From Lachnospiraceae bacterium (GTDB lineage: Bacteria > Bacillota > Clostridia > Lachnospirales > Lachnospiraceae), in NCBI GenBank assembly GCA_024690265.1, contig JAILCW010000087.1, positions 1 to 40,829 of the forward strand: a stretch of DNA of 40,829 bases, given 5' to 3'. The position numbers and the translations under genes were made by a program. Each line of letters begins with the position of its first letter. The first letter of the stretch is position 1. Of the stretch, positions 24,380-32,069 are shown one piece after another. The notes below the pieces were generated by a model. That model worked only from the letters and a program-made list of their open reading frames with translations, did no database searches and had not been told where the DNA came from.

Positions 24380-25459
24380 TTAGATTCCTAAGCGGTCCGG
24401 ATTCACTGCAAAGGTAAGTGCAGTCTCCTTGGTAATACGACCTCTCTGGTACAGGGACTTGATACTGTTGTCCATGGAAATCATGTTGTCGTTACCGGAA
24501 GTGGAGTAGATTACACCATCAATCTGGTAAATCTTGTTATCACGAATCATATTACGAATCGCCGGCGTGATGGTCATAATCTCGAAGGCAGGAACAATAC
24601 CACCATCAACGGTAGGTAGCAACTGCTGTGAAACAACGGCATTCAAAACGCAGGATAACTGTACTGCAATCTGATGCTGCTGGTTGGCCGGGAATACGTC
24701 CACGATACGGTTAATGGTGTTACTAGCACCAATGGTATGCAAGGTGGATAAGAGCAAGTGTCCGGTCTCTGCAGCGGTCATAGCAACGGAGATGGTCTCA
24801 AAGTCACGCATCTCACCAAGAAGGATAACATCCGGGCTCTGACGAAGGGCTGCACGAAGTGCGGAAACAAAACTCTCGGTGTCAACGTTTAACTCACGCT
24901 GAGAAACAATACTCTGATTGTGACGATGCAGATACTCAATTGGGTCCTCCAAGGTAATGATGTGAGAATTCTGTGTCTGATTGATGTGATCAATCATGCA
25001 GGCAAGGGTGGTAGACTTACCACTGCCGGCAGGACCGGTTACAAGAACCATGCCGTTGGTATCATTGCCCATCTCAATAATCTGAGGCGGAATGCCAAGC
25101 TCGTTCGGATCAGGCAACTGGAATGCGATGATACGAAGAACAGCGGACATAGAACCACGCTGCTTGTAAGCGCTGACACGGAAACGTGCAATACCGGGAA
25201 GTGCAATAGAGAAGTCGTCATCACCACACTCTAACAGGTTAATGTCTCGATTGTTTGCCAAGCGATATAAAGATTCTACAAATGCGTTGGTGGCATCCGG
25301 CATAAGACGATCATCATTCAACGCACAAATCGAACCGTGTTTACGATAGGAAATAGGACGGCCTGCAACAATAAAGATATCTGACGCATGGGCGTCAACG
25401 GTAGCTTGCAAGGTGTCCATTGTTTTTTTGTCAAATTGTTCCATTTCTTCCGGTGTCAT
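24380..25459 (-). CDS. pilT: PilT-type ATPase of a type IV filament system
   Basis: The 359-residue hexameric-type secretion ATPase has the Walker A motif GPAGSGKSTT, Asp box ITLEDPIEYL, Walker B DVILLGEMRDFETI and His box HLLLSTLHT. The AIRNMIRDNKIYQI element is the PilT hallmark. The N-terminal domain (ASDIFIVAGRPISYRKHG) matches the PilT/PilB fold. PilT proteins normally power pilus retraction. Here it is the only such ATPase in the operon, so it may drive both steps or work with a PilB encoded elsewhere. GAGGGAGGG lies just before the ATG. It is the last gene of the ten-gene minus-strand operon. Confidence 0.88.
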   Translation of the reverse strand: MTPEEMEQFDKKTMDTLQATVDAHASDIFIVAGRPISYRKHGSICALNDDRLMPDATNAFVESLYRLANNRDINLLECGDDDFSIALPGIARFRVSAYKQRGSMSAVLRIIAFQLPDPNELGIPPQIIEMGNDTNGMVLVTGPAGSGKSTTLACMIDHINQTQNSHIITLEDPIEYLHRHNQSIVSQRELNVDTESFVSALRAALRQSPDVILLGEMRDFETISVAMTAAETGHLLLSTLHTIGASNTINRIVDVFPANQQHQIAVQLSCVLNAVVSQQLLPTVDGGIVPAFEIMTITPAIRNMIRDNKIYQIDGVIYSTSGNDNMISMDNSIKSLYQRGRITKETALTFAVNPDRLGI

Positions 25460-25476: not shown

Positions 25477-25911
25477 TTATTGAATCAATGTTACCTGGTC
25501 AACAGCTTCCCACTCTACAGTGTCTACTGTTTTCCAACCAATGATGCGATAATCATGTCCGTTATCTGCAGGCTCTACAGTGACCTGTAATTCTTGGGTG
25601 TCACTCATTGGAAAATGCAGGGTCTGGGTGATGCTCAAAATAGAGGCACCACTATCTAATTCAACGCTTAAATCCCGAAGACTGACTTCAGCCTGATTGC
25701 AAGCGTTGTAATAGGCTTCTTTGCGGGCAATAAAGTCTGTGGCCTGTTTGGATTCGTTCAGTGCCGAAGACAGGGCAATGGCAGCAAATGTAAACAGGCA
25801 CAAAGCTAAGAATACCACAAGTAACAGGGAAATACCCATATTTACCGGCGGTAGTTGCCGTGTGTTTTTGCTATGTTTAATTTTGGTAAAACCTTGTTGT
25901 TCATTGTACAT
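25477..25911 (-). CDS. Pilin-like single-span protein
   Basis: The 144-residue product has a basic N-terminus, one membrane span (about residues 26-48, GISLLLVVFLALCLFTFAAI) and an extracytoplasmic domain that is helical then beta-rich. No family is recognised with confidence. Layout and place suggest a minor pilin or pseudopilin, but there is no clear G/FxxxE cleavage site; a weak candidate is Gly after VNM. Its ribosome-binding site (GGAGAA) overlaps the end of the upstream gene and the gap is 2 nt, so the two are probably translationally coupled. Confidence 0.6.
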   Translation of the reverse strand: MYNEQQGFTKIKHSKNTRQLPPVNMGISLLLVVFLALCLFTFAAIALSSALNESKQATDFIARKEAYYNACNQAEVSLRDLSVELDSGASILSITQTLHFPMSDTQELQVTVEPADNGHDYRIIGWKTVDTVEWEAVDQVTLIQ

Positions 25912-25913
25912 AA

Positions 25914-26426
25914 TTATTCTCCGGCCATATTATGGAAAAAGTGTTCAATGGTTAAATCATATACATGGGCAGTATTTCCACCGATGCGTACGCCAATATC
26001 GGCGGTTAACAGGCGGCTGTCCATGCCAAGTGTTACTTCTGCACAATAAGCAGCATCACTGTGTGCACATGGATGAAATGCATCATCATAGTAAATGTGA
26101 AGGATTGCCGGCAGGTCCGTCTCTTTTATTTTGGCTTTGGAAAGAGCAACTTCTTCTGTGCCGTCTCCCACAAGTATTACTGCGTCCGGATAGTAAGTCC
26201 CGAAACTGGAAATGGTATCTTCTACCGTCTCTCCGGAGCGAATAATCTCTGCAATGTTGCTGGCAATGGTTACATAATGTGTTTGTAAACTAGCATCGCG
26301 ACTAAGTGTGTGTGACTTAACGAATCCCACGATACAGATGGTTGCGATAATGGTAAATAGTAGGATGGAAAAAATCAGTTCCATCAGGAAAAGGCTTCCG
26401 TGAGAGGCCCGATGTCGTTGTGCCAT
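25914..26426 (-). CDS. Prepilin-like protein
   Basis: The 170-residue product starts with a short polar, basic leader (MAQRHRASHG) followed by SLFLMELIFSILLFTIIATI. This is the arrangement of a type IV prepilin (Gly, then a hydrophobic helix with an early Glu). The Glu is at +6 rather than the canonical +5 if cleavage follows the Gly. The rest is a soluble domain with two Cys (PCAHSDAAYC) that could form a disulfide. It is the most pilin-like of the four small genes. The start is 13 nt after the upstream gene's stop. Confidence 0.65.
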   Translation of the reverse strand: MAQRHRASHGSLFLMELIFSILLFTIIATICIVGFVKSHTLSRDASLQTHYVTIASNIAEIIRSGETVEDTISSFGTYYPDAVILVGDGTEEVALSKAKIKETDLPAILHIYYDDAFHPCAHSDAAYCAEVTLGMDSRLLTADIGVRIGGNTAHVYDLTIEHFFHNMAGE

Positions 26427-26439
26427 GTTACCCTCCCAA

Positions 26440-26928
26440 TTATTCTGTACAAACAGCTACCATAGCATCTGAGGTGTTGCCGGAGGAATCCGTGCAATGG
26501 AATGAGATTAGGTGAGCTGCATCTTCTTGAATGGTAAAATCAACCAGGTCGAGGATTGCGGTACCGCTACCGATGGCCATGTCACTGACACGAGAGGCAT
26601 CTGCGGTCATCTCGTAGAGCTTGCCGTCTGCAAAGTAGATGTACGTAATATAATCGACGTCGTTGATGTTGTTATGCAATAAAAGGGCGTCAGCATCATG
26701 GAACTTGCCTACTTCTATGCCGTCTGAATCATCTGCCTGACGAACCTTTTCGGTAACGTAGGCCAGGGCGGTGTTAGCACTGTAGTTCCGTGAGGAATTG
26801 TCTACAATCTTTTGATAGATCTGCGCTGCAAACAAAATGATAAACAGCGCTGACAAGGTAAAAATCAGAAACAGTAAGATTGGAAACACATATTCCATTG
26901 GCCCGGATTTCTTTTTGTCATTTCGCAT
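26440..26928 (-). CDS. DUF4860-like pilin-type protein
   Basis: The 162-residue product has a basic N-terminus (MRNDKKKSG), a membrane span with PMEYVFPILLFLIFTLSALF (about 10-36), then an exported domain of beta character (ALAYVTEKVRQADDSDG, YITYIYFADGKLYE). It resembles the Firmicute DUF4860 family from memory; this was not confirmed by search. A Gly immediately before the hydrophobic segment and a Glu three residues later could be a modified prepilin cleavage site. It is tightly packed (11 nt) behind the next pilin-like gene. Confidence 0.6.
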   Translation of the reverse strand: MRNDKKKSGPMEYVFPILLFLIFTLSALFIILFAAQIYQKIVDNSSRNYSANTALAYVTEKVRQADDSDGIEVGKFHDADALLLHNNINDVDYITYIYFADGKLYEMTADASRVSDMAIGSGTAILDLVDFTIQEDAAHLISFHCTDSSGNTSDAMVAVCTE

Positions 26929-26939
26929 GTCTGTGACTC

Positions 26940-27281
26940 CTAATTTGTTTTCCGCTCGAGAATCGTTACGTCAGGATAGACGTTGGTTCCCTGAACATGA
27001 TAATCAATGAAAAACAAGTCCTCATCATAGGTCAGGCCGTACTCGGATTTGATGAAATCCAAATCTGTAGGATAACGACCGGTGGTTGCGTAGCAATAAA
27101 TGATGTCGTTCTTGAGCGCATTCTCTAAGCTTTCACGCTGACGTGAAGTGGTACCACTGGATAGGATATTGGTTGCAAACGCAAACAATCCGATGATACC
27201 GGCAAACGCCAACAGTGGAAGAAACATCATAAACCCTTTGCTACGGCTCCGATGGGAATCGTTGTACTCAAATCGTGCCAT
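26940..27281 (-). CDS. Small pilin-like protein
   Basis: The 113-residue product has a polar, basic leader ending SRSKG, then FMMFLPLLAFAGIIGLFAFA (about 17-38). This matches a prepilin leader with cleavage before Phe, but there is no Glu at +5. The short exported domain contains RYPTDLDFIKSEYGL, a pattern often seen in pseudopilins. No named family is assigned. It lies 15 nt downstream of the GspF-like gene, like a major or first pseudopilin. Confidence 0.6.
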   Translation of the reverse strand: MARFEYNDSHRSRSKGFMMFLPLLAFAGIIGLFAFATNILSSGTTSRQRESLENALKNDIIYCYATTGRYPTDLDFIKSEYGLTYDEDLFFIDYHVQGTNVYPDVTILERKTN

Positions 27282-27296
27282 AGTGCATCACCTCTT

Positions 27297-28352
27297 TTAC
27301 AAGCTGGCCATGATGCCCAACAGTGGGAACATAACGGATAGCAAAATAATACCTACAATAACGGACAGAACAATGATTAATGCCGGCTCTAATACCGCCA
27401 GACGATTGTTAATCTTGTTATCGATGTCTTCCTGATACAAATCGGAAATCTGGCTCATTACCTGGTCTAAGGCACCGGTCTTGTTACCGATGGAAGTCAT
27501 ACGGGAGTATACGCCACCGAAGATACCAACTTCCTTTAGGGCATCTGCCATGGTAAGACCTTCCATCATCTTGGTGTTACATTCTGTAAGCTCCTTTTTG
27601 AATGTCGGGTCTTCACTTAATTCACTAACCAGCTCAAAGCACTGGTCCGGAGTTAGACCACTTCGAAGCGTGATGGCCATACCACCTGCAAAGTGGCAAG
27701 CGTTGATGCGATTGTTCAGCTCACGGAAGAACTTGAACTTGTTCAGGAAGCTGTGGCTCATCTGTCGACCCTTTTCGGTGCGGGCACCAAGGAATGCAAT
27801 TACCAACAAAACAGCCAGAATCAGAATCAATGCCATGGAATAACGACCAATGGCGGTTCCTACATTCAACAAGCCTGCTGCAAAACCGGTCATCTCGGTA
27901 CCTAACTGCTGGAATACCTGATTGAAGATAGGCATAACCTTGACCAATAGAATGAGGATAACGATGATAATCATGCCGGCCATAATGAACGGATAAATCA
28001 AAGCATTTTGAATGGAAACACGAATGCTTTCTTCACGCTCATAGTGCTCCTGCAGAGATACCATAACTTCGTCTAAGTTACCGGTCTGCTCACCGATGCG
28101 AACCATGTGCAACATGTAATTCGGGAAAAGTCCGGTGTTTTGCATGGATTCGAACAGGCTGCCGTTTTGTAACATATCGTTTTTGATGGCATCTAAGATA
28201 GCCCGATCCTCTTCAGTGGAGTTGTCATCCTTCATCATATCGATACCTTCCAGAGAGGAGATACCGGACTTAAGGATGAGGGCCATTTGTCCACAGAAGT
28301 AGGACAGTTCATTATTGTCGAGTTTTCTTCCGATTTTCTTTTCTTGTTCCAT
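27297..28352 (-). CDS. Type II secretion/type IV pilus inner-membrane platform protein (GspF/PilC family)
   Basis: The 351-residue product has the two-fold repeat of GspF/PilC: a cytoplasmic helical bundle (LSYFCGQMALILKSGISSLE...MVRIGEQTGNLDEVM), a membrane pair (about 124-145 and 170-190), a second bundle (ACHFAGGMAITLRSGLTPDQ...TSIGNKTGALDQVM) and a final span (about 325-348). It forms the membrane platform that works with the PilT-type ATPase to move pilin subunits. Length is slightly below the usual 400 residues, mainly at the N-terminus. It anchors the identification of the operon as a filament or secretion system. Confidence 0.88.
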   Translation of the reverse strand: MEQEKKIGRKLDNNELSYFCGQMALILKSGISSLEGIDMMKDDNSTEEDRAILDAIKNDMLQNGSLFESMQNTGLFPNYMLHMVRIGEQTGNLDEVMVSLQEHYEREESIRVSIQNALIYPFIMAGMIIIVILILLVKVMPIFNQVFQQLGTEMTGFAAGLLNVGTAIGRYSMALILILAVLLVIAFLGARTEKGRQMSHSFLNKFKFFRELNNRINACHFAGGMAITLRSGLTPDQCFELVSELSEDPTFKKELTECNTKMMEGLTMADALKEVGIFGGVYSRMTSIGNKTGALDQVMSQISDLYQEDIDNKINNRLAVLEPALIIVLSVIVGIILLSVMFPLLGIMASL

Positions 28353-28390: not shown

Positions 28391-29398
28391 TTAGTAATTA
28401 TATTTTACGGTGTAATTGCTACCGTCGCCAACGTATTCCTTAATGGCGGAACTGCTGTTGGCTTTATTGGCGGCAAGAGTAGGATCCATCAGGGACCAGG
28501 TGCTGCCGTCAAATTGAATAATGTTATCAACCCAACCAATTTCATCCAGGTAAACGCTAATCCATGCATGGTAGGCTGTTCCGGAGTATCCAACTACTAG
28601 CTTGGTAGGAACACCTTGGGAACGAAGCAGGGCACTCATCAGAGATGCATAGTCAAAACAGATGCCCTTTTTGGAAGCCAACGTTGATGCAGGATCCGGA
28701 ATGTAATTGGTTCCGATATTAGCGGCCAATTCCTCGTCATAAGTTACGTTATCAATTACGTAATTGTAGACGTTGGTGACATAGCCCAAATCATCTGCAG
28801 ACTTGTCGGATAACTGTACACCCAAGGTTGTAGTACTGGAGGATGCAGTATAGTCCACGTATTGGTTCGGATACAAAAACGGTCGAAACTCATCGTTGAT
28901 GGATACGGAAATGTTGTCGGAGTATCCCAGCGAATACATATTGTCGGATACATGCTCTAACACATCCACCTTGTAGGAACCGCTACCGCCGGTCAGAGGA
29001 AATACACGAGGTGCTCCGAGATTCAGCGGATACGGATACATGGTGCCATCCGGGTAAGTGATTTGAACCTGAACCTTGTCTGCACCGCCGGTATAAGTCA
29101 GTGTCAGATAACCCTCCGAGGTATTGGAAATATCCAAGGAAATGGTTTCGTTCCCGAGGACTTCCTGGCCTGGTGCTTCCGGCATGAGAAAGTCATGTAC
29201 TGTGGCTCGCCCGCCTTCTTCTACAACGGCAGAAGATGTGGAGGAAGTAGATGCAGAGCTGTTTTCGGAACTACTGCTGCTGGGAAGAGGGAAACCTCCG
29301 CCACCACCATCATCGGAACCGCAGCCTCCCAGGATTAATCCCGCACTCAGGAGACATACCGCCATGAGTTTTTGCATAAGAATGGTTTGTTTTTTCAT
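28391..29398 (-). CDS. Lipoprotein with transglutaminase-like domain
   Basis: The 335-residue product has a lipoprotein signal peptide with lipobox LGGC (Cys26), a Ser/Thr/Gly-rich linker and a beta-sandwich-like middle region. A transglutaminase-like cysteine-protease-fold domain follows with a complete triad: Cys247 in KKGICFDYASL, His277 in YHAWISVYL and Asp305 in LMDPT. It should sit on the outer face of the membrane. Family members act as proteases, peptidases or cross-linkers of cell-surface proteins. Its position 38 nt before the platform gene suggests a role in processing or cross-linking the filament or in wall passage; that is inference. Confidence 0.85.
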   Translation of the reverse strand: MKKQTILMQKLMAVCLLSAGLILGGCGSDDGGGGGFPLPSSSSSENSSASTSSTSSAVVEEGGRATVHDFLMPEAPGQEVLGNETISLDISNTSEGYLTLTYTGGADKVQVQITYPDGTMYPYPLNLGAPRVFPLTGGSGSYKVDVLEHVSDNMYSLGYSDNISVSINDEFRPFLYPNQYVDYTASSSTTTLGVQLSDKSADDLGYVTNVYNYVIDNVTYDEELAANIGTNYIPDPASTLASKKGICFDYASLMSALLRSQGVPTKLVVGYSGTAYHAWISVYLDEIGWVDNIIQFDGSTWSLMDPTLAANKANSSSAIKEYVGDGSNYTVKYNY

Positions 29399-29412: not shown

Positions 29413-30456
29413 TTAATCGTGGGATAGCAGCAGGTGTAAACGATTGCCTGCCATATCCGGAATAACAATATCAATATTGCCACCGGGATAATCAAAGGAA
29501 AATGATTCCTGGTCCTCGGTAATATTCGTCGTAATGGAAAGTCGCTCCCCAGTCAGGGTCATAATGCTGACGTTATCGTAGTCCACACCACTGCCTGCAT
29601 CGTCGACCACCAGGGTTACCACGCCGGAGCGCAGATGGGATTCCGTTACCTGCGGTGCTTCACGGTCCACTTCGGTTACGGTTAGCTGCTGCTGTCTGGT
29701 GGTGTTATTAAAATAGGTGACGCACACATCCATTTCACCGTTGGTTGTGGGCTTGATGTCAAAAAGACTTCGACTGTCCTGAGTCACCGGCATCATCTGG
29801 CTATCTATTTGGGCAACTACGGACTTGACCCGAATCAGGCTGCTGACATTGACATGGTAGGTCACGATCCCATGCTCCACTTCCTCGGATATATGGAAGT
29901 TGGGCGAAATAAACCATAGTGGGGATGCACAAATAAATGCAATCACCACAATCAATGCCAATCGCTGTACATGCAACTGGTTCAGTCGGTATTCATGGAA
30001 CTCAGCCAGCGAATCCAGCGGAAGGGTGTTGGGCTCTTTTCCAATTTCAAAAAACAGGTATTCCAACATTTGGCCGGCAATGTCCATCTTCATGCGAGGT
30101 GCTTTATGCCCAAAAATCTTACGACGCATCCGCGGTGTATTTGTCGGCAGGGCAACTACAGAGTTCCACTTGTCCGGATCTTGCTTACGAAGGGACAACA
30201 GCAGGTGCTTTTCTTCGATGTTGCGCAACCAAGCATGAAAACTACGTGGTGACAGCATCTGATCCAATGTGGTAAATGCCTCGGCATAGGTGTCGGTCAC
30301 AATGTCCTGGGTTAGATATTCACTTTGTGTGTAGTAGTATGCCCGCTGATAAAGCTTCTGGTAAGTGGCAACGTAGAGAATCGCGTATGCGTTGGAATCT
30401 CCACCGAGGGCTTCCTCTATCAGACGCTTATAGTAGGCGGCTCTGCCTCTATCCAT
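29413..30456 (-). CDS. Membrane protein with ECF-sigma region-2-like N-terminus and extracellular C-terminus
   Basis: Residues 20-92 of this 347-residue protein read like region 2 of an ECF sigma factor (AILYVATYQKLYQRAYYYT, DIVTDTYAEAFTTLDQ, FHAWLRNIEEKHLLLSLRK). Region 4, the -35-recognising half, is absent. A cytoplasmic linker, one membrane span (about 165-184) and an extracytoplasmic beta-rich domain of about 160 residues follow; it contains the Ig-like segments VDREAPQVTES and VVDDAGSGVDYDNVS. The start follows AGGAGA by 6 nt and lies 1 nt after the upstream gene's stop. It may be a membrane-held sigma-like or anti-sigma-like regulator of the operon; I know no described family of this layout. 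Confidence 0.75.
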   Translation of the reverse strand: MDRGRAAYYKRLIEEALGGDSNAYAILYVATYQKLYQRAYYYTQSEYLTQDIVTDTYAEAFTTLDQMLSPRSFHAWLRNIEEKHLLLSLRKQDPDKWNSVVALPTNTPRMRRKIFGHKAPRMKMDIAGQMLEYLFFEIGKEPNTLPLDSLAEFHEYRLNQLHVQRLALIVVIAFICASPLWFISPNFHISEEVEHGIVTYHVNVSSLIRVKSVVAQIDSQMMPVTQDSRSLFDIKPTTNGEMDVCVTYFNNTTRQQQLTVTEVDREAPQVTESHLRSGVVTLVVDDAGSGVDYDNVSIMTLTGERLSITTNITEDQESFSFDYPGGNIDIVIPDMAGNRLHLLLSHD

Positions 30457-30457
30457 G

Positions 30458-31195
30458 CTACGTCTCCTCTAATGTTGAAGCCTCCGTTGTTTCATCATCA
30501 CGATACAGAGACTTTACCATCTCCAAACGACGATTGGAGAGAGCAACCAGCTCTGTAATCTGTTTCACGTGCTGCTCATGAAAAGCCATGCCATAGGAAT
30601 AGGTCATACGAGGATTCTGTGGGTCACCATTGTGATCCATGACTTTTTGGTCAATGCGTGCCAGAAACTCATCCATAATTTCCCGGCTGGAATCCTCGAA
30701 GATTGCCAGAAATCGATTACCTCCGTTACGTCCAACGAAACAGGTATTTACGGATGCCATTTTAAGAATGATGGAAAAATTGCGAATCTGACGATTACCC
30801 GCCATACGGTTATAGTTGCGGTTGGTCTCTTCTAAGCTGGTCAATTCAAACATAATGCATCCCATATCCGGTGGTAACGGTTGGTCGATGTACTGCTCAA
30901 TCAATTCGTCACAGCCATTGCGGTTGGCAATCTTGGCCAGAGGATCGGAGTGAGCGGCATAATCCAAAGCGCGATAGTCACGCTTCTGGGTAATGTACAT
31001 AGAAAAATCGATAAAGATAAATAAAAATGAGAAAAACAGGCATATCCATAGAAGGACAGAAAACAGACGGACAGAATGACTGATGGCGATGGATGGTGCA
31101 ACGTCATCATCGGTTACAATTAAAAGAAAGCAAACGATGGCCAGTGCTGTAAAGATAAACAATTGAACCGTCTTAAGAATGTCCAACTTTTTCAT
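30458..31195 (-). CDS. Membrane protein with degenerate GGDEF domain
   Basis: The 245-residue product has two membrane spans (about 8-27 and 42-66) and a GGDEF-like domain. AAHSDPLAKIANRNGCDELI corresponds to the DxLTGLxNR start, and GRNGGNRFLAIF is at the active-site loop. The signature is GGNRF (158-162) instead of GGDEF, and the first metal-site Asp is replaced in MFELTSLEETN. It should therefore not make c-di-GMP; a receptor or scaffold role is more likely. It is the second gene of the filament operon, 32 nt after the LytTR regulator, with GGGGAGG before the ATG. Confidence 0.8.
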   Translation of the reverse strand: MKKLDILKTVQLFIFTALAIVCFLLIVTDDDVAPSIAISHSVRLFSVLLWICLFFSFLFIFIDFSMYITQKRDYRALDYAAHSDPLAKIANRNGCDELIEQYIDQPLPPDMGCIMFELTSLEETNRNYNRMAGNRQIRNFSIILKMASVNTCFVGRNGGNRFLAIFEDSSREIMDEFLARIDQKVMDHNGDPQNPRMTYSYGMAFHEQHVKQITELVALSNRRLEMVKSLYRDDETTEASTLEET

Positions 31196-31227: not shown

Positions 31228-31938
31228 CTACTTGTGACTGCGATAATCCTGTATCTTTTGGCTAATCTGTGATAACTCACGAATCTTCACCGGGAACTGC
31301 TGTCCATCCGTAAGGATGCACACCCCGTCCTCGATGCGGTCAATATAGTCCATGTTAACGACGACTCCCTTGTTGATGGCAAGGAAACGTTCGTCCTGTT
31401 CCAACTCATCCATAAACTGAACCAGGGTATTGCGGGATTGAAACTCCTCGTCGTCCATATTCGTAATAATCAGATAGTGGCCCTGAGTCGTAATGGAAGT
31501 GATGTCACTGCGCTTCAAGGTATACTTCTGACGATTCACAGAAATGGTGACATAGTGTTCTACCTCTGGCAACACACGGGTGGCGTCAGATAATAATTGA
31601 TTGATTCGATCGGGCTTGGGAGGCTTGACGATGTAATCGAAGGCGTGCAATGTAAATGCCTGTGGCATGTTGTCTACACTGGTGGTGCAGAAGATAATCA
31701 TGACCTCCGGCTCCTTGACACGGATGGCTTCTGCAACCTCGATTCCGGTGATATCCCCCATGTAGATGTCGAGAAAGACGATGGTATATCGGCCGGGCTG
31801 GAATTCACGAATGAATGCCTGCGAATCGGTATAATAACTGGTGGCAATCTCTACGTTGTGTTCTGTGGCATAGCCACGAATCAACGCCTGCAACTGCATG
31901 CAGCTAATCTTTTCGTCGTCAACAATTACGATGTTCAT
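31228..31938 (-). CDS. LytTR-family response regulator
   Basis: The 236-residue product has a receiver domain (IVIVDDEK at the start, phospho-acceptor Asp57 in VFLDIYMGD, conserved Lys in YIVKPPKP) and a C-terminal LytTR DNA-binding domain (from about residue 130; KYTLKRSDITSI, ERFLAINKGVVVNMDYID). It probably activates the operon it heads or other surface genes. No histidine kinase is encoded next to it, so its partner must lie elsewhere. The start follows GGGGAC; a TATAAT-like box lies at 31995-31990 on this strand. Confidence 0.9.
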   Translation of the reverse strand: MNIVIVDDEKISCMQLQALIRGYATEHNVEIATSYYTDSQAFIREFQPGRYTIVFLDIYMGDITGIEVAEAIRVKEPEVMIIFCTTSVDNMPQAFTLHAFDYIVKPPKPDRINQLLSDATRVLPEVEHYVTISVNRQKYTLKRSDITSITTQGHYLIITNMDDEEFQSRNTLVQFMDELEQDERFLAINKGVVVNMDYIDRIEDGVCILTDGQQFPVKIRELSQISQKIQDYRSHK

Positions 31939-31989
31939 AAGTCCCCATTACTCCGTTTCGAGTCTTATAATAAGTATATCCTTCTCCAA

Positions 31990-31995
31990 ATTATA
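31990..31995 (-). promoter_or_regulatory. -10 box upstream of the LytTR-led operon
   Basis: A perfect TATAAT on the minus strand (31995-31990) lies 52 nt before the LytTR start. No good -35 is present at 16-18 bp, so an activator may be needed. Confidence 0.4.
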
Positions 31996-32069
31996 CCTCT
32001 ATTTTATTAAAGTGCCCTATGGAAGTCAACGCATTCATCCCATTGGACAGGTGGATAAAAACATGGATA

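Follow-up and report, generated by a model that had tools for sequence, protein, structure and literature searches.

The window analysed here is a stretch of 40,829 nucleotides from a Lachnospiraceae bacterium (assembly GCA_024690265.1, contig JAILCW010000087.1, positions 1 to 40,829). Its minus strand carries a run of genes encoding, in order, a LytTR response regulator, a two-span GGDEF protein, a fused sigma protein, a transglutaminase lipoprotein, GspF, four pseudopilin-like proteins and PilT (Table 1). The third gene of this run encodes a protein of 347 amino acids and is the subject of this study; an earlier note had given its coordinates but not its strand, and the open reading frame that it claimed is matched exactly in the sequence.

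Table 1. Features of the fused gene and of the surrounding operon in the window
Feature	Position	Strand	Basis
Whole gene: single-span membrane protein with an N-terminal sigma region 2 and no region 4	29413..30456	-	ORF, Pfam, NCBIfam
ECF sigma region 2, residues 8-97, with apparently eroded 2.2 and 2.3-2.4 contacts (D51, T54, D55)	30166..30435	-	profile and structure-sequence matches
Short linker, residues 98-117, at the place of region 4 in relatives	30106..30165	-	alignment with region-4-bearing relatives
Conserved cytosolic juxtamembrane segment, residues 118-165 (A-x-x-L-L-x-x-I-F-x-x-x-G-x-x-P-N-T)	29962..30105	-	
Membrane span, residues 166-188	29893..29961	-	hydropathy scans and alignment
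Outer module 1, residues 191-267	29656..29886	-	boundaries approximate
Outer module 2, residues 268-347 (SGVDYDNV...IPDMAGNRLHLLL)	29416..29655	-	boundaries approximate
LytTR response regulator, operon head	31228..31938	-	
Protein with two spans and a degenerate GGDEF domain (GGNRF), which regularly accompanies the sigma or fusion gene	30458..31195	-	
Transglutaminase-like lipoprotein	28391..29398	-	
GspF/PilC-type platform protein	27297..28352	-	
Four pseudopilin-like membrane proteins (one matches DUF4860)	25477..27281	-	
PilT-family ATPase	24380..25459	-	TIGR01420, 410 bits

The resemblance of the N-terminal part of the protein to sigma region 2 exceeds chance. Residues 8-97 match the NCBIfam sigma models TIGR02954 (E 7.7e-11), SigY (5.4e-9) and SigW (4.1e-8), and the region 2 patterns quoted in the earlier note are all present, namely YQKLYQRAYYYT (residues 32-43), DIVTDTYAEAF (51-61) and FHAWLRNIEEKHLL (73-86). 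As a single-sequence query the window protein reaches the SigW structure 5wuq in the PDB with an E of 2.9e-5, and a profile built from seven region-2-only proteins finds SigW (5wuq) and other ECF structures with a best E of 6e-8. The Pfam model Sigma70_r2 scores 17.9 bits on the window protein, which is under its 24-bit cut-off. Region 4, which the note had claimed to be missing, is indeed absent from the window protein and was found in none of the seven region-2-only proteins scanned, as compared with 22 of 22 separate relatives and five of five other fusions. A hidden or split region 4 was considered and rejected: the 20-residue linker leaves no room for one, the neighbouring genes abut, and the only region-4-only match above cut-off in G000 and G002 is YlxM-like.

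After region 2 the note had described a membrane span and a beta-rich outer domain. A single hydrophobic span at about residues 166-188 bears out the former, and the part beyond it, of about 155 residues, is judged to be beta-rich from its sequence. The juxtamembrane segment is equivalent to the N-terminus of a separate partner protein in relatives, and the sole outer module of the short separate partners corresponds to outer module 2. The same-genus orthologue in genome G002 is 58% identical to the window protein and has an identical layout, which is also seen in G001, where the gene is present as two pieces at contig edges. A contig scan with the single window protein as query returned no match. 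Weak Pfam matches to CytochromB561_N, CarbopepD_reg_2 and GldM_3rd were below cut-off or isolated and were disregarded.

The GGDEF protein is present at 36 of 38 sigma loci, whether pilus genes are present or missing. Because its motif is degenerate (GGNRF in the window; GGNKF or GGNEF in most relatives), a catalytic role is doubtful. A LytTR gene upstream in the operon was found only in the window genus and in G205, both with the region-2-only form, and this restriction suggests that in the window lineage the LytTR response regulator may have taken over operon transcription. No histidine kinase gene is seen among the genes read next to it. In congeners a small divergent membrane protein (VEISDVETPLSQTT) is encoded between LytTR and LepB (L031:7717-8142); the corresponding site in the window (31938-32019) is just 81 bases long, so that this gene seems to have been lost. 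The Pfam N_methyl signature is absent from the four pseudopilin-like proteins of the window, and no N_methyl pilin was found in genomes G000 or G002. The set has the appearance of an unusual minimal filament or secretion machine.

Separate and fused relatives

Within the family, a profile of the membrane part has matches in 63 of 396 genomes. Many of the weaker ones are ectodomain-only proteins (L012, L023 and others), which have no sigma module nearby and were set aside. The common state at sigma-module loci consists of GGDEF, ECF sigma, a separate single-span partner, transglutaminase, GspF, pseudopilins and often PilT. The separate ECF sigmas are about 160-215 amino acids long and comprise regions 2 and 4; among the 22 scanned, Pfam recognises region 4 in all and region 2 in 21. 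Fusions that include region 4 occur in L032, L033, L079, L081 and L085, and no pilus genes were found near any of these. Fusions lacking region 4 occur in the window genus and in L082, L090, L103, L131 (titled Solobacterium sp.) and L137 (titled Erysipelotrichia), the last two from a second collection, and all of them adjoin pilus genes.

On a tree of the neighbouring GGDEF protein the fused state implies at least four changes and the loss of region 4 at least two, and L090 clusters with L084, which has separate genes, away from the window group. A tree of GspF and transglutaminase also requires two losses of region 4. Some inner branches of these trees are weak, and L131 and L137 are not placed on them.

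Other sigma homologues depart from both states. Proteins of 500-700 amino acids in several relatives (L006, L013, L014, L015, L018, L030) have a sigma-like N-terminus, then a hydrophobic stretch and varied C-terminal parts; since by eye a stretch resembling region 4 is retained in them and their C-terminus differs, they were classed separately. Fusion of sigma factors to membrane proteins may thus be common in Lachnospiraceae. Homologues of the separate sigma at L127:4228-4733 and L151:3591-4176 have regions 2 and 4 in two overlapping frames, which would reflect a frameshift or else a natural split of the gene; an intact second copy of the sigma is present in L151 as well. In RUI302 (L113), whose GspF is 88% identical to that of the window, the fused gene and most of the GGDEF gene are gone in one deletion, and the first part of the GGDEF gene is joined in frame to the transglutaminase gene (L113:5306-6463) with the pilus genes intact; as the genome is a MAG, this could be an assembly error.

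Separate and fused proteins also differ within region 2. The D..Q(E/D) motif of region 2.2, which binds core polymerase, is kept in 24 of 27 separate sigmas and in none of the 11 fused proteins counted (Fisher p 3e-7, a value that ignores relatedness; there are just three to four independent pairs, too few for significance). The Q-E pair of this motif presumably contacts the core as in sigma70. The window protein has D51, T54 and D55 at these positions. When the comparison is limited to positions that 80% or more of 39 separate sigmas conserve, the region-2-only proteins have retained a mean of 69% of those in the scaffold helices, 41% of those in 2.2 and 33% of those in 2.3-2.4. The contact residues for core RNA polymerase and for the -10 element appear to be eroded in the fused form. 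Acidic residues of region 2.2 are reported to be required for core binding in ECF sigma factors (EcfP, PMC8999054).

The promoter of the separate sigma factors

An ECF-like element consisting of TGARCC, 18 bases and GTCTTTA is conserved upstream of the GGDEF gene in separate-sigma loci. As TGARCC-N18-GTCTTW it is seen before this gene in L036, L037, L078, L080, L084, L088, L089, L091, L094, L096-L102 and others, and it is often oriented outward from the operon, facing a gene for a divergent small membrane protein or for a giant secreted surface protein. A search of 1.70 Mb of loci with a relaxed form of the element gave 20 occurrences at spacing 18, as compared with 2-9 for every other spacing between 12 and 25. 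The genes immediately downstream of high-scoring sites encode the divergent small membrane protein (IEDEETPLA-like), very large secreted surface proteins, the partner or the GGDEF protein; no site in the fused loci scores above 14.

In a set of 32 genomes, TGARCYNTTTTN13GTCTTW was matched exactly 19 times, and these copies fall in 10 of 20 separate-sigma genomes and in none of 12 fused genomes or congeners (G000-G003, G205, G359, G414, G039, G386, G029, G266 and G120, among which G003, of the window genus, counts only as a congener, because the gene itself has no match there). The reversed pattern, as a control, occurs once in the 32 genomes. When one mismatch was allowed, the contrast between separate and fused genomes was lost in background. 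Because the pattern was learned from separate-sigma loci, its copies within the operon are partly circular evidence, which does not apply to the eight exact copies outside it. Two of these eight stand in front of genes for type IV pilins with a Pfam N_methyl match (G410, G230), two precede large secreted proteins, one a CAP-domain protein and one, by eye, a GGDEF-like membrane protein, and no clear target is evident for the remaining two. On the operon side, one copy lies before a weak PilZ match. The targets of this promoter form a candidate regulon of the intact sigma, with putative control of pilus and surface proteins in Lachnospiraceae; no report of such a sigma, promoter and regulon was found in the literature searched.

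Role of the retained region 2

At the level of sequence, the comparisons establish an origin of the window protein by fusion, the loss of region 4, the erosion of contacts, the lack of exact promoter copies and the maintenance of selection on region 2. The protein is probably a retired ECF sigma factor whose region 2 now serves as the cytosolic interaction head of a membrane sensor on the filament machine. The earlier note had offered three readings, of which a former sigma domain turned scaffold fits best, because relatives with an intact ECF sigma and a separate partner gave way to fusion and then to losses; the note's interpretation as a whole is thus partly supported. Its membrane-released regulator is weakened, since release in the manner of IutY would free a region 2 without core contacts and with no promoter to use, and its sigma decoy gained no specific support. 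Control of the filament operon, which the note also proposed, is consistent with gene order, but a LytTR response regulator and not a sigma factor heads the operon in this lineage.

Alternatively, region 2 may be an evolutionary remnant left from the fusion, with only the membrane partner part still of consequence. This is unlikely, although region 2 erodes at its former sigma-function sites, and the deletion in RUI302, together with the many pilus operons that lack the module, indicates that the module is accessory and dispensable for the machine. In the comparison of G002 with G001, region 2 has a dN of 0.08 and a dS of 0.71, and the ratio of 0.12, similar to that of the outer modules of the same protein (0.11), argues that it is not drifting freely and is under purifying selection. 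Region 2 has moreover kept its reading frame throughout the fused lineages seen, among them two or more that lost region 4 separately. The window protein and that of G002 are 62% identical in region 2, 50% in the first outer module and 65% in the second, with synonymous sites saturated.

Less likely still is a sigma mimic or decoy, in which region 2 would titrate an anti-sigma factor or the polymerase clamp, with access gated by a membrane signal, comparable to PhyR and NepR. A sigma-like domain whose contacts have degenerated has a precedent in PhyR (PMC8103513), the juxtamembrane segment derives from an apparent sigma partner, and another ECF-type sigma is present in the genome (L202). However, the polymerase contacts are eroded, no exact cognate promoter is left to regulate, and the original sigma is the fused protein itself, so that there is no obvious sigma to release. 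That proteolysis frees region 2 as one half of a two-subunit sigma, to pair with a separate region-4 protein as RsoA does with SigO, is very improbable: IutY is a fused ECF released by proteolysis (PMC8999054) and SigO-RsoA a working split sigma (PMC8103513), but the only region-4-only match above cut-off in G000 (77% complete) and G002 is YlxM-like, the core contacts are eroded and there is no exact cognate promoter.

According to the favoured reading of a retired sigma factor, the genes for an ECF sigma and for its single-span neighbour merged, after which region 4 was deleted and the polymerase and -10 contacts eroded, leaving a protein that presumably no longer starts transcription. Region 2 would then be a protein-contact head facing the cytosol, held or presented by the conserved juxtamembrane segment; the ectodomain would read a signal outside the membrane and the head would relay it by protein contact. 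The most likely contact, judging from gene neighbourhood, is the membrane protein with the degenerate GGDEF domain, whose gene lies 2 bp upstream, and the output would be a tuning of the transglutaminase/pseudopilin/PilT filament machine rather than of transcription. Evolution has preserved the protein despite the loss of its promoter-finding half, which suggests that it probably signals to the pilus-like machine and not to RNA polymerase.

A broader proposal, toward which we lean slightly doubtful, is that ECF sigmas of Lachnospiraceae have repeatedly been converted to membrane-anchored signalling heads that act directly on the GGDEF/pseudopilin machine, with region 2 a reusable interaction domain outside transcription. 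If true, sigma region 2 would be a protein-interaction domain with uses beyond transcription. The relatives, mostly of one family, form a natural series from separate genes through fusion, loss of region 4, loss of contacts and loss of the promoter to a protein that is nonetheless kept, and this series turns the role of sigma region 2 besides polymerase binding into a testable question.

Comparison with known systems

Fusions of a sigma factor with a membrane anti-sigma factor, thought to be released by proteolysis, are known from IutY of P. putida (ECF243) and from ECF52 SCO4117 (PMC8999054). PhyR of Alphaproteobacteria is a soluble response regulator whose sigma-like domain, with degenerate contacts, titrates NepR, and RsoA of B. 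subtilis is a soluble region-2 subunit that works with SigO (PMC8103513). A recurrent, membrane-anchored form with region 2 only was not reported in the literature searched, in which fusions (IutY, ECF52) and mimics (PhyR) are known.

The window protein resembles IutY and ECF52 in its N-terminal ECF domain, its C-terminal span and outer domain, and its origin by fusion with a membrane partner, for which separate-gene relatives exist. IutY and ECF52 have retained region 4 and function in transcription once released, whereas the window protein lacks region 4 and the promoter, appears to lack the core contacts, and could not yield a complete, transcriptionally competent sigma; its partner segment is furthermore not a recognised anti-sigma domain. 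With PhyR it has in common a sigma-like domain in which the contacts to polymerase and promoter are degenerate and which presumably does not start transcription, but PhyR is soluble and the window protein is membrane-anchored with region 2 only. Like RsoA it has region 2 without region 4; unlike in the SigO-RsoA pair, no region-4 partner was found for it in G000 (77% complete) or G002, nor any exact cognate promoter, and RsoA is soluble.

A further likeness is to the separate sigma and partner of related Lachnospiraceae (for example L036, L037 and L075), which have homologous region 2, juxtamembrane segment, span and outer module and the same operon position. Those systems consist of two genes; region 4 and the D..Q(E/D) motif are present in their sigma, and most of the loci also carry a promoter that matches it. 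By the measure of an ECF (group IV) sigma factor, the window protein has the region 2 homology, lacks a region 4 with helix-turn-helix, seems to be without the core polymerase contacts of region 2.2 and has no copy of the exact cognate promoter pattern, a different promoter being possible. It is therefore filed as a derived variant of the sigma/membrane-partner fusions rather than as a sigma factor.
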